In this document: one piece after another, positions 5,206 through 13,369 of the stretch
Position numbering within the stretch: the first letter of the stretch is position 1
Layout of the letters: each line of letters begins with the position of its first letter
Source of the DNA: Microbacteriaceae bacterium VKM Ac-2854
GTDB lineage: Bacteria; Actinomycetota; Actinomycetes; Actinomycetales; Microbacteriaceae
Assembly: GCA_013205085.1 (NCBI GenBank)
Contig: JABMLH010000002.1
Location: 437,425-501,424 of the forward strand
Direction: 5' to 3'
Length of the DNA: 64,000 nt
The notes under the pieces: model-generated
The model's database searches: none
Told to the model about the DNA's origin: nothing
What the model saw: only the letters and a program-made list of their open reading frames with translations
Made by a program: the position numbers and the translations under genes

Positions 5206-6354
5206 GTGAGAGTCGCCGTCGTCACCGAGAGTTTCCTACCCTCCCTCAACGGAGTCACCACCAGCGTGCTGCGCGTGCTCGAGCAGTTCGCCGAGCGCGG
5301 CATCGAGGCGCTCGTGCTGTGCCCGAACGCCGGCGCGCCGCGCGAATACGCCGGTCACCGCGTGATTCAGCTGCCGGCGCTCGCGTACCGCGACTTCCCC
5401 GTCGGTCTGCCCAATCCGGCGATGGCCAAGGCGCTGGCGGCGTTCCGACCCGACATCGTGCACGCGGCCTCGCCCTTCCTGCTCGGCGGGCAGGCGATCG
5501 CCGCTGCGGCACGGACGGGGGTACCCAGCGTGGCCGTCTATCAGACCGACGTCGCCCGATTCGCCGCGCGCTACGGCATCCGTGGCGCCCGTGCACTGGC
5601 GTGGAAGGTGATCGCCTCGGTGCACGCGCAGGCGACCCTGACCCTCGCGCCGTCCTCCAGCGCGATGGAGGATCTGCACGCGGCCGGCATCGAGCGGACC
5701 GCGCTCTGGGGTCGCGGCGTGCAGAGCGAGCGCTTCCACCCGCGGGCGCGGGCGAGCAGCTACGCGCAGGATGCCCGCGCCGGACTCGGCGAGGACGTGC
5801 TGGTCGGCTACATCGGTCGGCTCTCACCCGACAAGCGGGTCGAGCGGCTCGCCGCGATCGACTCGCTGCCGCGCACCCGCCTGCTCATCGGCGGCCACGG
5901 CCCGTCGGCCGGCTCGGTGCGTGCTGCGCTCGGTGCCGACACCGTCTTCACCGGGCGACTGGACGGCGAGCGCCTGCCGGCGACCTACGCGGCCCTGGAC
6001 ATCTTCGTGCACACCGGAACGGAGGAGACCTTCGGCCAGAGCATCCAGGAGGCGCACGCCTCGGGCATCCCGGTGGTCGCCCCGCACGCCGGCGGGCCCA
6101 GCGATCTGATCGAGCACGGCGTGGACGGCCTCTTCTACGCTCCGGAGAGCGACTTCGACCTCCGCCGCCAGGTCGCACGACTCGTCGCCGACTCGGTGCT
6201 GCGCGCTCGGATGGGCGAGGCCGGTCGACGCCGCGTTCTCGGCCGCACGTGGAGCGTCGTCACCGACGAGCTGCTCGCGCACTACGCCGGCGCACGGGAA
6301 CTCCCCCGGTACACCACAGGCGCAGCCCAGACCGACCGGCTAAGGCTCACCTAA
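5206..6354 (+). CDS. Glycosyltransferase family 4, probable GDP-mannose-dependent mannosyltransferase
   Basis: A GT-B fold retaining glycosyltransferase of 382 residues. It starts at GTG 5206 with the typical MRVAVVTESFLPSLNGV acceptor-site loop. The C-terminal donor domain has LVGYIGRLSPDKRVERL, a nucleotide-sugar region, and the EX7E motif in EETFGQSIQEAHASG followed by PVVAPHAGGPSDLI. It resembles mycobacterial PimB'/MgtA-type alpha-mannosyltransferases that build phosphatidylinositol mannosides or mannosyl-glucuronosyl lipids. The adjacent GDP-mannose synthase gene supports mannose as donor sugar. The acceptor is not determinable from sequence. Confidence 0.85.
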   Translation: MRVAVVTESFLPSLNGVTTSVLRVLEQFAERGIEALVLCPNAGAPREYAGHRVIQLPALAYRDFPVGLPNPAMAKALAAFRPDIVHAASPFLLGGQAIAAAARTGVPSVAVYQTDVARFAARYGIRGARALAWKVIASVHAQATLTLAPSSSAMEDLHAAGIERTALWGRGVQSERFHPRARASSYAQDARAGLGEDVLVGYIGRLSPDKRVERLAAIDSLPRTRLLIGGHGPSAGSVRAALGADTVFTGRLDGERLPATYAALDIFVHTGTEETFGQSIQEAHASGIPVVAPHAGGPSDLIEHGVDGLFYAPESDFDLRRQVARLVADSVLRARMGEAGRRRVLGRTWSVVTDELLAHYAGARELPRYTTGAAQTDRLRLT

Positions 6355-9199: not shown

Positions 9200-9964
9200 A
9201 TGAGCACCGCTACCCTCGAGGCCCAGCCGCCCGCCGCGTCCGACGCGCCGGAGAGCTTCACCGTCACCTTCATCATCCGTCGCTTCGACCCCGACGTGGA
9301 CGCCGAGCCGCGCTGGCAGGACTTCGACGTGCAGATGTACTCGACCGACCGCGTGCTGGACGCGCTGCACCAGATCAAGTGGGAGCAGGACGGCTCGCTG
9401 ACGTTCCGCCGCTCCTGTGCGCACGGCATCTGCGGCTCCGACGCGATGCGGATCAACGGCCGTAACCGGCTCGCCTGCAAGACGCTGATCAAGGATCTCG
9501 ACATCTCGCAGCCGATCTACATCGAGGCCATCAAGGGCCTGCCGCTGGAGAAGGACCTCGTCGTCGACATGGATCCGTTCTTCGCGTCGTTCCGCGAGGT
9601 GCAGCCGTTCCTGGTCTCGCGCACTCCCCCGGTGGGCGGCAAGGAGCGCATCCAGTCGGTCGCCGACCGCGCGCGCTTCGACGACACCACCAAGTGCATC
9701 CTCTGCGCCGCGTGCACCTCGTCGTGCCCGGTGTTCTGGACCGACGGTCAGTACTTCGGCCCGGCCGCGATCGTGAACGCGCACCGCTTCATCTTCGACT
9801 CGCGCGACGAGAACGCCGATGTGCGCCTCGACATCCTGAACGACAAGGAAGGCGTGTGGCGCTGCCGCACCACCTTCAACTGCACCGAGGCGTGCCCCCG
9901 CGGCATCCAGATCACCCAGGCGATCGCCGAGGTCAAGCAGGCGGTCATCCGCGGCAAGCGCTAG
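9200..9964 (+). CDS. sdhB: Succinate dehydrogenase iron-sulfur subunit
   Basis: Carries electrons from SdhA to the membrane quinone. 254 residues. All three clusters have their ligands: SCAHGICGSDAM plus a later Cys for [2Fe-2S], CILCAACTSSC for [4Fe-4S], and CRTTFNCTEACPRGI for [3Fe-4S]. It begins two bases after the sdhA stop. Its last 241 bp, stop codon and following terminator are repeated almost exactly at 12438-12735, on the far side of a caspase-kinase gene. This upstream copy is the intact gene. Confidence 0.97.
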   Translation: MSTATLEAQPPAASDAPESFTVTFIIRRFDPDVDAEPRWQDFDVQMYSTDRVLDALHQIKWEQDGSLTFRRSCAHGICGSDAMRINGRNRLACKTLIKDLDISQPIYIEAIKGLPLEKDLVVDMDPFFASFREVQPFLVSRTPPVGGKERIQSVADRARFDDTTKCILCAACTSSCPVFWTDGQYFGPAAIVNAHRFIFDSRDENADVRLDILNDKEGVWRCRTTFNCTEACPRGIQITQAIAEVKQAVIRGKR

Positions 9965-10021
9965 GCGCACCGCTTCGCGAACGGCCCGTCGGAACCCCGG
10001 TTCCGGCGGGCCGTTCGGCGT
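9724..10021. repeat. 298-bp direct repeat, left copy (sdhB 3' end plus terminator)
   Basis: Bases 9724-10021 recur at 12438-12735 with one difference that I could find: T at 9820 against C at 12534, a synonymous GAT/GAC change. The unit covers the end of sdhB, its stop codon and its terminator hairpin. The two copies bound a 2416-bp segment of clearly lower G+C, so they mark an insertion or duplication event. Confidence 0.95.
9978..10017 (+). terminator. sdhCDAB terminator
   Basis: Long hairpin just after the sdhB stop. An 11-bp stem CGAACGGCCCG pairs with CGGGCCGTTCG, then a T-G wobble, then a 7-bp inner stem CGGAACC, with a 2-nt loop. There is no U-tract, as is common in high-G+C actinobacteria. 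The identical hairpin occurs at 12692-12731 in the right repeat copy. Confidence 0.75.
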
Positions 10022-10142
10022 TCCGGGAGGCTGGGGCAGCATGGAACGAGACAGTCGCAAGATTCCTGCCGAAACCGGCGCCGAATATGCTCCGACGTGC
10101 GACAATCGGGCCAAACGTTTTGTCAATGCCGAGAGGATACCG

Positions 10143-12391
10143 ATGAGTGGTAACGCAAGCAACCAGGGGCGCCACGCGATCGTGATCGGGATTGATGCGT
10201 ATCAGGGCGAAAATGAACTATTCGGATGCGTCAATGACGCGAAAGAAATCGCCGACCACCTCACCCTCGAGCAATATGATTACGACGTCACTCTGCTGTT
10301 CGACCGACAAGCCACACGGGACGCCATCATGAATGCGATTGGTCGGCTTGCGTACACGATGAGGCCAACGACACCTTCCTGCTTTATTTCGCAGGGCATG
10401 GCACCCTACTGGGAAATGCTGGGCACCTGTGCACCATCGACGGAACCAACTGGAATCCAGGAATCTCCCTCGCCGACATCGCCCTCGCCATGGAGGCTGC
10501 ATCTACACACTACCGCCAAGTCGTCGCGATCATCGATTGCTGCCATTCCGGCTCTGGGATGACTTGGGTCACCGAACGCCCGTTGACGAATACTCAGTTC
10601 GAAAGCGAGATCCCCGGGATCAATACGAGCAGAGTGTTACTTGCCGCATGTCGTTCATGGGAAGAAGCTGCGGAGACCCGCACAGCACCAACTCATGGCG
10701 AGTTCACACAATCAATACTCGAGGGGCTATACGATGGCGCGGTGGACTATAACGGCAACGTGACCGCCATGGGGCTTCATGACTTTGTGTCTAAACGCAT
10801 CGACCCTAGCATTCAGGTGCCCGTCTTCAAGGGCGATTCACACGGGAGCGTAATCCTGGGCTCAGGTTTCGAGCCGCGAGTTGGAGCGCCGATTGAACGC
10901 GCGGAACTCGACCGCGTTGTCGCTAAAGCTATAGGACTGGCGGACACCTACCAGCAACTGCAGTTGCGGGAATTGGGCGAATCCAGCAACAGAGCGCGCG
11001 GAGGGCTTGTGCGCTGCTCGATCGCACTAGAGGATTCGATAAGGTGGTTCGAAGATGTTCAGAAAGACCTACCGGACATCACCCGCGACAACGAATGGCG
11101 CCGAGCGTCCGAGACGATCCTCAACGGTCAGGCAGCACTAAGCGATTTTGGGACTGGAGACGAAGTGTTTTTCGGCCAAGTTCAACGCCGAATTGGTCAG
11201 GGTGGATTCGGTAATGTATGGGAGGTAACCACGGCCAACGGCGGTACTGTCGCGATGAAAGTATTTCACGGCAGTGAACTGCACGACCCGACCAAGCCGA
11301 AACGCTTCAAGAATGGGTATTACAGCATGTCGCGGCTCGCTCACCCCCGCATAGTGCGCGTCCATCAGTTCTCAACTGCACCCCTGGCCTTCACGATGGA
11401 TTACATCGATGGTCCGGATCTACGTAGTCTGTATCTTGATCCGTCCGACGCTGCCAAGACGATTCAACTCGCTTACGAGATTGCGGACGCAGTGCGATTT
11501 GCTCACGAAGCCGGGGTCAAGCATCGCGACATAAAGCCCGAGAACGTGGTAGTACACGACAAAGACGGCCGAATTACACCCTTTTTGACTGACTTTGACT
11601 TAGCGTATATGGAAACCAACAAGACGGTAACTACCCATCTCGTTGGCGGAGTTATCAATTACGCCGCCCCCGAGCAATTCTACGCGCCGAATAGCGCAAG
11701 AGCCCGGAAAGCTACTGTTGACATCTTCTCAATGGCTCAACTAATGTACTTCCTCATCGTCGGGCAAGATCCGAGTGCTGAGAAACGCGATCGGAATCTC
11801 GCTGCACTTGGCGAGTCTCTGCGAGGATGGACGGATGATCGGGCGGCAGAGCAAATATTTGACATTTACAGAGATTCGTCAGAGCTGAATCCGGACCGCC
11901 GAACTCAGTCGATGGATGATGTGGTGAAGAGGTTAACACGAGTGCGCGCTCTAATCGAGGCAGCCGAGACAAGCGACGCAGTTCACGCGAGCGATTTCTG
12001 TCGCAGAGTTGCGTTTGTATACGCTGGCCTTGGACGCTATTCTACGATTGACGAATCCGTGCATTTCAAAAGCAACGCGGGTACCACCGATGTGGAGATA
12101 TTCGAGCGCGGAGTACCTGGCCAAAGATCAATTAGCATCCAGATGAGTCTATCCGTTTCTCACACCCTTTCGCTTCCCGGTATCAAATCTCAATCAGACG
12201 CACGTACCCGCATCAATCAGAAAATAGACAAACGGGTAAAGAATGTCGACGGCGTATCGCGGCATCCTGGAAATTCCGGTCAATATCAGACTCACTTACA
12301 CCTCGACAACCTCTCGTTGACTACCGATGGGGTTGTGAAAGCGACAGAAGTTCTAATCGCCGCACTGGGTGGCATTGAAGAATGGGATTGA
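10143..12391 (+). pseudogene. Caspase-like peptidase / Ser-Thr protein kinase fusion, interrupted by a frameshift
   Basis: The N-terminal reading frame (ATG 10143, AGAGG site upstream; an earlier ATG at 10041 is possible) encodes GRHAIVIGIDAY and GCVNDAKEIADHL, the start of a caspase fold. Homology jumps frame near 10340-10370, consistent with one missing base. It continues with FLLYFAGHG (catalytic His codon 10397) and DCCHSG (catalytic Cys codon 10541). After a helical linker comes a kinase: IGQGGFGNV, VAMKVF, HRDIKPEN near residue 460, DFD in place of DFG, APEQF. An unassigned domain of about 150 residues follows. About 749 residues if repaired. Codon use and G+C differ sharply from neighbours, indicating transfer. 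Role as an anti-phage or stress-suicide protein is inferred. It may be a true pseudogene or a sequencing error. Confidence 0.82.
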
Positions 12392-12432
12392 TGCGAGCGC
12401 GTGGCCCCTTTCGAACAGACAGTGTCACTTAG

Positions 12433-12678
12433 TTGAAGTGCCCGGTGTTCTGGACCGACGGTCAGTACTTCGGCCCGGCCGCGATCGTGAACGCGCACCG
12501 CTTCATCTTCGACTCGCGCGACGAGAACGCCGACGTGCGCCTCGACATCCTGAACGACAAGGAAGGCGTGTGGCGCTGCCGCACCACCTTCAACTGCACC
12601 GAGGCGTGCCCCCGCGGCATCCAGATCACCCAGGCGATCGCCGAGGTCAAGCAGGCGGTCATCCGCGGCAAGCGCTAG
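12433..12678 (+). pseudogene. sdhB 3' fragment (duplicated)
   Basis: An 81-codon open frame matching the last 80 codons of sdhB, from CPVFWTDGQYF to the stop. It keeps the [3Fe-4S] ligands but lacks the flavin-side clusters, so it cannot make a working subunit. The first homologous base is 12438; the few codons before belong to the insert. It is a remnant of the event that placed the caspase-kinase gene here. Confidence 0.93.
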
Positions 12679-12735
12679 GCGCACCGCTTCGCGAACGGCC
12701 CGTCGGAACCCCGGTTCCGGCGGGCCGTTCGGCGT
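12438..12735. repeat. 298-bp direct repeat, right copy
   Basis: Right-hand copy of the sdhB 3' repeat, offset 2714 bp from the left copy, with a single mismatch. It includes a second copy of the terminator hairpin at 12692-12731. Host sequence resumes immediately after it, with the TetR gene ending at 12752. Confidence 0.95.
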
Positions 12736-12751
12736 GGGATCAGGACGCTGA

Positions 12752-13369
12752 TCAGCGCGTGGACCCCGCCGGAATGATCAGGTCGAGTTTGTGCCCGAAG
12801 CATTCTGCCAGCAGCTCGCGGCCGTCCGGATCCGCTTCGTACAGCGCCGGCATCTCCAGCCCGAGCAGGGTGTTCAAGAGCATGCCGTGCGCGAGGAAGC
12901 CGCGGACCTCCTCGGGCGAGAATCCGGCCTCATCGCGCAGGAGTCGATAGGTCGACAAGAACCCCTCCCGCGCCGCCGGGCCGATCACCGGATCTGAGCC
13001 GGCGAGGAACGCCTGCATCAGCACGCGCATGATGTTGCGGTCGGCGACGAGATCGACGTAGGCATTGCCGAGTTGGTGCGACAACGCATCCCGGTCACCG
13101 TCGCTCGCCGCGACCACGGCGCGGAACCGGGTCTGCAGCGCCTCGAGCGCCCGGCCGATCGCTTCGAGGAACAGCGCCTCCTTGGTGCCGAACATGCGCA
13201 CCACGTACGGCTGGCTGATGCCGGCCGCCTTCGCGATCTGGTCCGTCGTCGTGCCGGAGAAGCCGCGCGAGCCGAAGAGTTCCGTCGCCGCGATCAGGAT
13301 GAGCTCGCGACGCTCGGCGGCGGGGATGCGTTCGCGGACGGAGGCGGATTCGGGGGCGGTCGAGGTCAC
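12752..13369 (-). CDS. TetR/AcrR family transcriptional regulator
   Basis: Probable repressor of the divergent MFS efflux gene and of itself. 205 residues. The N-terminal TetR helix-turn-helix runs from about residue 25 to 70, with TTDQIAKAAGISQPYVVRMF and GTKEALF. The rest is an all-helical ligand domain. GTG start at 13369 has no visible ribosome-binding site, and a possible -10 (GATAAC) lies about 20 nt upstream, so the message may be leaderless. Two matching operator palindromes lie in the shared intergenic region. The ligand is unknown. Confidence 0.88.
   Translation of the reverse strand: MTSTAPESASVRERIPAAERRELILIAATELFGSRGFSGTTTDQIAKAAGISQPYVVRMFGTKEALFLEAIGRALEALQTRFRAVVAASDGDRDALSHQLGNAYVDLVADRNIMRVLMQAFLAGSDPVIGPAAREGFLSTYRLLRDEAGFSPEEVRGFLAHGMLLNTLLGLEMPALYEADPDGRELLAECFGHKLDLIIPAGSTR

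Follow-up and report, generated by a model that had tools for sequence, protein, structure and literature searches.

Fusion of a caspase-like protease with an atypical kinase and a domain of probable chaperone type in actinobacteria: a possible one-protein abortive-infection switch

Introduction

Can a caspase-like protease and the apparatus that controls it travel among bacteria as a single gene? The question is raised by a gene at positions 10143 to 12391 of a 64,000-nucleotide stretch of the Microbacteriaceae bacterium VKM Ac-2854 genome (assembly GCA_013205085.1, contig JABMLH010000002.1, positions 437,425 to 501,424; hereafter the window, coordinates of which are used throughout), in which a caspase domain is followed by a helical linker, a Ser/Thr kinase and a further ~145 residues that form a C-terminal domain. 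The known switches of bacterial caspases are nucleotide messengers and partner proteins, and a caspase that brings along a kinase and possibly a peptide sensor would, if this reading is true, be a prokaryotic parallel of animal kinase-caspase death signalling. We tentatively propose, with somewhat less than even confidence, that the gene belongs, as a broken copy, to a rare family of actinobacterial abortive-infection switches, each made of one protein, which moves as a single-gene insert. The fusion is a single testable protein of ~740 residues, and its intact relatives allow direct tests of each active site, of the C-terminal domain and of phage dependence.

A four-part fusion conserved in rare relatives

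The initial annotation had recognized a caspase and a Ser/Thr kinase in the window gene, and profile searches bore this out. The reading frame switches once, near codon 70, so that the gene spans two frames; the frame was not mended, and the two pieces were searched and compared separately. The frame-1 piece (the first ~70 residues) matches PF00656 with E 7.4e-8 (32.8 bits, gathering score 21.4), and the frame-2 piece matches PF00069 with E 1.5e-29 (103.7 bits, gathering score 31.7). The same four-part architecture was found in all five relatives (four complete, the fifth truncated where its contig stops), and because they carry the same four parts the architecture of the window gene is not due to chance. 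Full-length matches in genome contigs came from Streptomyces torulosus (locus L068), a Rhodoglobus metagenome-assembled genome (L069, truncated by the contig end), Catenuloplanes japonicus (L070) and Sphaerisporangium album (L071), while the fifth relative, an open frame of 745 residues with the whole architecture, was located in genome G501 by a C-terminal domain search of the other 393 genomes of the class. Streptomyces, Catenuloplanes and Sphaerisporangium are filamentous genera. The contig scan, which employed a two-sequence profile and returned 35 loci (four full-length and 31 partial to the query), relied on two short patterns, and the family is therefore under-sampled.

Both catalytic sites are conserved. 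The motifs YFAGHG, LDCCHSG and HRDIKPEN, the A-x-K lysine and LTDFDLA are kept in the five relatives, which score 67-75 bits against PF00656 (cut-off 21.4) and 84-109 bits against PF00069 (cut-off 31.7). Each thus combines a Peptidase C14/orthocaspase match above the gathering score and its His/Cys dyad with the score, catalytic Lys, HRD and metal-binding Asp of a eukaryote-like Ser/Thr kinase. The earlier suggestion of a direct caspase-kinase fusion in one polypeptide could have been undone by homologues missing one of the two sites; the conserved two-site architecture answers that test in favour of the fusion, even though the kinase is atypical.

The distribution of the family is very patchy. 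The C-terminal domain was detected in 2 of 394 genomes of the class (the source genome included), in the source genome alone among 396 genomes of the phylum, and in 1 of 35 genomes of the family of G501, the same genomes making up its order. A whole-protein search of the family to which the window belongs matched 398 of 398 genomes, ordinary kinases swamping the result, and among the matches listed the source genome's own copy alone exceeded a kinase-only match. Scans with a single protein gave no match in the viral and genome collections, and neither did the two-sequence profile in the viral collection; searches of plasmid records found neither the full-length fusion nor the C-terminal domain.

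Relationship to Thoeris-type caspases

Among the plasmid caspase matches listed (114 and 131 records in total), identities were ~32-40% and most proteins were stand-alone members of the 'caspase family'. From the best of these matches we chose 11 plasmid loci for comparison, and in ten of them a TIR/ThsB gene lies directly upstream of the caspase gene, nine annotated as such and one, a hypothetical gene, scoring over the cut-off of ThsB_TIR (PF08937). In the Rhizobium rhizogenes locus (L116, 2374-2781) a RyR-like gene (E 0.00044, below the Pfam cut-off) takes the place of the TIR gene, and two TIR genes lie farther upstream of it on the other strand. By their layout we take the chosen plasmid caspases for type IV Thoeris, a system described as a TIR protein, ThsB, with a caspase-like effector (Rousset et al., 2025, as cited in PMC12847820 and PMC13373217). 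According to the available text of one of these sources, the caspase-like protease is activated by N7-cADPR, degrades cell proteins and blocks phage (PMC12847820).

Profile-profile comparison aligned the fused caspases with the 11 plasmid caspases over 250 columns (E 3.7e-45, probability 100), with the His/Cys dyad kept in the fusion. It stops at column 258 of 327, and the last ~70 conserved columns of the TIR-operon caspases, their own conserved C-terminal part, have no counterpart in the fusion, which instead has the linker, the kinase and the chaperone-like domain. Phylogenetic analysis placed the six fused caspases in one clade (90/89, and 92/91 in a second tree) and the TIR/RyR caspase group in a separate clade (100/99 in both trees). 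The two clades joined weakly (85/58) in the tree without EACC1 rows, which included five long-branch rows, and the join was unresolved in the second, from which these five rows had been dropped and to which EACC1 rows had been added; the 12 EACC1-type caspases above cut-off fall outside (99/96). Since the profile match is strong and the tree join weak or unresolved, the fused caspase appears closely related to the Thoeris-type caspases, and sisterhood is not established.

Type IV Thoeris has the TIR gene in the same operon, whereas none was found near the fused genes. A TIR profile built from the ten TIR partners, which matches their source loci by construction, detected no TIR gene in the five fused loci or the window (one side only in L069), nor in 13 other caspase loci; the source genome holds one TIR_2 gene, on another contig. 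Membership of Thoeris was consequently not accepted, as there is no TIR gene in the five fused loci or the window.

Comparison with other known systems

Several other systems share a part of the fusion. According to the accessible text of Kaur et al. (2020; PMC7159879), EACC1-type caspases, also actinobacterial, are N-terminal caspases with a C-terminal partner, for which as many as 50 domains are mentioned, including 'signaling enzymes', and some caspase-kinase fusion may for this reason already be listed there. EACC1-caspase systems, however, consist of two genes, and the window insert holds no second gene nor room upstream for a sizeable one. An EACC1 assignment was rejected on the score against NF047832 (74-77 bits in the three relatives scanned and 65.1 bits in the window, cut-off 140), and partial neighbour scans of the relatives gave no match to an EACC1 gene.

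The kinase domains of MAD6, from the MADS system, and of PD-T4-6 are similar to that of the fusion by PADLOC. MAD6 was rejected (NF047741, 102.7-112 bits against a cut-off of 460 in the three relatives scanned), and the best PADLOC scores for PD-T4-6 were 109-132 bits in the window and the four relatives scanned, against a model without curated cut-off. To our knowledge, neither protein carries a caspase.

The C-terminal domain resembles in its predicted fold the TY-chaperones, described in the accessible part of PMC9503650 as a peptide-binding superfamily of type III secretion system (T3SS)/YbjN type, and differs in being fused to a kinase and a caspase. The orthocaspase MaOC1 of Microcystis is likewise a caspase homologue in a direct-repeat locus, but its repeats enclose a toxin-antitoxin module that is next to the caspase gene, and no kinase fusion is mentioned (PMC7935541). 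No description of a caspase-linker-kinase-chaperone fusion was found in the literature searched, which comprised partial texts and left figures, supplements and most subscription papers outside.

Unusual kinase motifs and the probable chaperone-like fold of the C-terminus

The initial annotation had read HRDIKPEN correctly in the kinase (11166-11960, plus strand, as are all parts of the gene), which in addition has DFD in place of DFG and no alphaC Glu. In an alignment of the six fused kinases with ten readable comparators (three PknB-like and seven others, five other PknB-type rows having been left out), the alphaC Glu position holds Gly in 6/6 fused kinases (RF..G[YF]) against Glu in 10/10 comparators, and the DFG motif reads DFD in 6/6 against DFG in nine of the ten. 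None of the six therefore shows the canonical alphaC Glu and DFG of active kinases. The A-x-K lysine, the HRD Asp, the HRDIKPEN Asn and the metal-binding DFD Asp are nonetheless retained in the five relatives and the window, which makes kinase activity possible in spite of the atypical motifs. Structural comparison of a relative's full model returned kinases alone among the matches listed.

The linker between caspase and kinase (10886-11165, limits estimated) is modelled in the Streptomyces relative as three long helices. The C-terminal domain (11963-12388), which had been left unassigned earlier, resembles in its predicted fold the class I type III secretion chaperones and YbjN: of the 19 top-ranking structural matches to its model, 17 are type III secretion chaperones or YbjN/AmyR/DR_1245, judged by title or protein name. 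No Pfam family scored above cut-off over linker or C-terminus in the five relatives (a weak match to DUF2921_N, E 0.12 and below cut-off, extends into the C-terminus of the Sphaerisporangium protein), a PDB profile search with the C-terminal domain gave best E values of 0.35 and 0.92, and no TY-chaperone family matched it in sequence above cut-off. Domains of the T3SS/YbjN type have been predicted to act as peptide-binding chaperones in immune loci (PMC9503650, part of the text), and by its modelled fold the C-terminal domain is probably a chaperone-like sensor. Sensing or licensing of protease activation by the kinase, as proposed previously, is conjectural, and the C-terminal domain may instead be the sensor.

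The window copy and its insert

The N-terminal part of the caspase domain lies in frame 1 (10143-10357), with the frame change near its end, and the remainder in frame 2 (10358-10885, the end estimated from alignment with the relatives). The first piece is 58% identical to the G501 relative and the second 30-47% identical to the five relatives. The dyad motifs YFAGHG (~10385) and DCCHSG (~10535), both reported previously, stand in the second frame, which is open from 10280 to 12391 and has no start codon ahead of 10490; translation restarted at 10490 would yield a product that has the Cys without the His. As assembled, the window copy appears broken and should make no active protease unless the assembly is wrong.

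The gene occupies a foreign insert of 2416 bp (10022-12437) with a G+C content of 0.544 against 0.68-0.70 in the flanks, and it is the sole gene there, in agreement with the earlier statement that the insert holds no partner gene. Immediately upstream is a core gene (9200-9964, plus strand) that, from its sequence, we take to be sdhB, for the succinate dehydrogenase iron-sulfur subunit; its stretch is present in all 14 congeners searched. Direct repeats of 298 bp bound the insert, copy 1 (9724-10021) consisting of the final 241 bp of sdhB plus a terminator-like tail and copy 2 (12438-12735) repeating this 3' end of sdhB while the remainder of the gene is missing, both on the plus strand. The copies show a single mismatch (9820/12534), and because they differ at just one of 298 positions the insert is possibly recent. 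Only the source genome has two sdhB matches, against one long match in each of the 14 congeners. In one of these (G010), sdhB runs directly into the same native right flank without the insert (blastn), the flanking open reading frame (ORF; 12752-13369, minus strand) being presumably a TetR-type regulator; the right flank was unmatched by blastn in the remaining 13 congener loci fetched.

The insert contains neither an integrase nor an antitoxin-like gene nor any other gene of a mobile element. Candidate routes by which a one-gene piece came to lie between 298-bp copies of the end of a core gene are a single crossover with a circle that carried the end of sdhB, and mobilisation in trans.

Genomic context of the relatives

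The G+C content of the gene is below that of its surroundings in all six loci (0.51-0.60 against 0.67-0.73), in a low block of ~2.1-3.2 kb. In Catenuloplanes, exact 64-bp repeats of the 3' end and tail of a tRNA-Val gene (5676-5739 and 10522-10585 of L070) enclose the relative and a DDE transposase gene (ISAs1-type by DNA match), and transposase genes also lie near the relatives in L068 and L071. The tRNA-Val repeats resemble attachment sites of an element without integrase. No shared metabolic operon, the other setting that would have spoken against the initial annotation, was seen, and the window gene itself is a foreign insert behind sdhB. In the Rhodoglobus assembly (L069, 4306-7997) the relative immediately follows a long ORF, presumably an SMC gene, and the contig stops inside the relative. 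Sphaerisporangium has a 703-residue Mrr_cat protein beside its relative, and in G501 the neighbouring Mrr_cat match is slightly below the family cut-off (20 against 21 bits).

A DUF6338 gene neighbours the relative in S. torulosus (L068, 10395-11096), and three of the 11 TIR-caspase stretches also carry one by annotation (L103 4737-5321, L108 4636-5364 and L114 1844-2518). Its recurrence beside fused and TIR-paired caspases points to a possible unrecognised accessory gene.

Proposed function and alternatives

In the switch that we tentatively propose, the caspase-like protease, kin to the effectors of TIR operons, would be held inactive through the helical linker by the kinase and the C-terminal domain. 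The latter would capture an extended phage or stress-exposed polypeptide, and the kinase would respond to this capture by autophosphorylating or by changing its shape. The altered kinase would then, through the linker, free or dimerise the caspase, which would cut host proteins, so that phage multiplication stops and the infection aborts. A stronger version, which we consider rather unlikely, is that one mobile gene encodes a whole immune pathway in a single polypeptide, with a caspase as executioner, an atypical kinase as switch and a chaperone-like domain as peptide sensor. A Thoeris-type caspase would here have given up its TIR partner and nucleotide messenger in favour of a fused switch, phospho- or conformational, and would detect invaders through the extended polypeptide that it traps. 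Compared with the initial annotation, the interpretation is now sharper: the gene encodes a caspase close to the Thoeris type, with no TIR gene in its vicinity, in the same polypeptide as an atypical kinase and what is probably a chaperone-like sensor. The link to defence that it had suggested is indirect, through this kinship, the DUF6338 and Mrr-type neighbours and the patchy distribution, and the window copy is broken. Likewise, the idea of a single-gene system agrees with the window insert and with the gene forming the low-GC part of the relatives' loci, but in S. torulosus the low-GC stretch continues over the DUF6338 gene (500-bp profile).

Full pseudokinases usually lose some of the Lys, HRD Asp, Asn and metal-binding Asp, and the retention of all four here argues against the kinase being a pseudokinase scaffold, with at most ATP binding and no phosphorylating activity, that couples the C-terminal sensor mechanically to the caspase. 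This alternative is still a real, if somewhat doubtful, possibility given the Gly and DFD common to the six fused kinases, and, according to the accessible text of Kaur et al. (PMC7159879), the catalytic residues are disrupted in most of the kinase domains that belong to related conflict systems of actinobacteria. The frame change itself could be an assembly error or a programmed frameshift, the protein being made after all, as the second frame runs without a stop from 10280 and the insert may be recent. We consider this unlikely: the five relatives read through in a single frame, so there is no conserved recoding, and no homopolymer of at least 4 occurs within 10300-10420, which makes the commonest type of read error improbable at the frame change.

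Two further alternatives, each less probable still, concern what the protein would serve instead. A role in regulated cell death or development (differentiation or stress) of multicellular actinobacteria, not specific to phage, would suit the occurrence of relatives in Streptomyces, Catenuloplanes and Sphaerisporangium and the abundance of metacaspases in groups with complex morphology, as stated in the available text of PMC3501461. Such a role fits poorly with absence from 34 of 35 genomes in the family of G501, with kinase-only matches for all but the source genome's own copy among those listed for 398 family genomes, with the low G+C of the gene and with repeat-bounded inserts at two loci. 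Protection of a mobile element instead of the host, through competition between elements or addiction, with the window copy as a decaying cargo relic, seems about equally improbable. The repeats around the window and Catenuloplanes genes, the transposase genes at three loci and the changed frame are consistent with it, but the window insert lacks any integrase, antitoxin-like or other element gene and the full-length gene was not found on plasmids.

Other caspase genes

The source genome carries a second caspase gene (L001, 1279-3549; G000:C1, ~209 kb) of 756 residues and different architecture, with an N-terminal part that, by its motif, we take to be hydrolase-like, followed by the caspase domain. 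It adjoins an ORF resembling an AAA-type ATPase and is far from the fusion in the caspase tree without EACC1 rows. Additionally, on two Bradyrhizobium plasmids (AP014688.1 and NZ_CP086139.1; H99 and H100) the caspase match lies under a gene annotated as a helicase, maybe another fusion of a related caspase.
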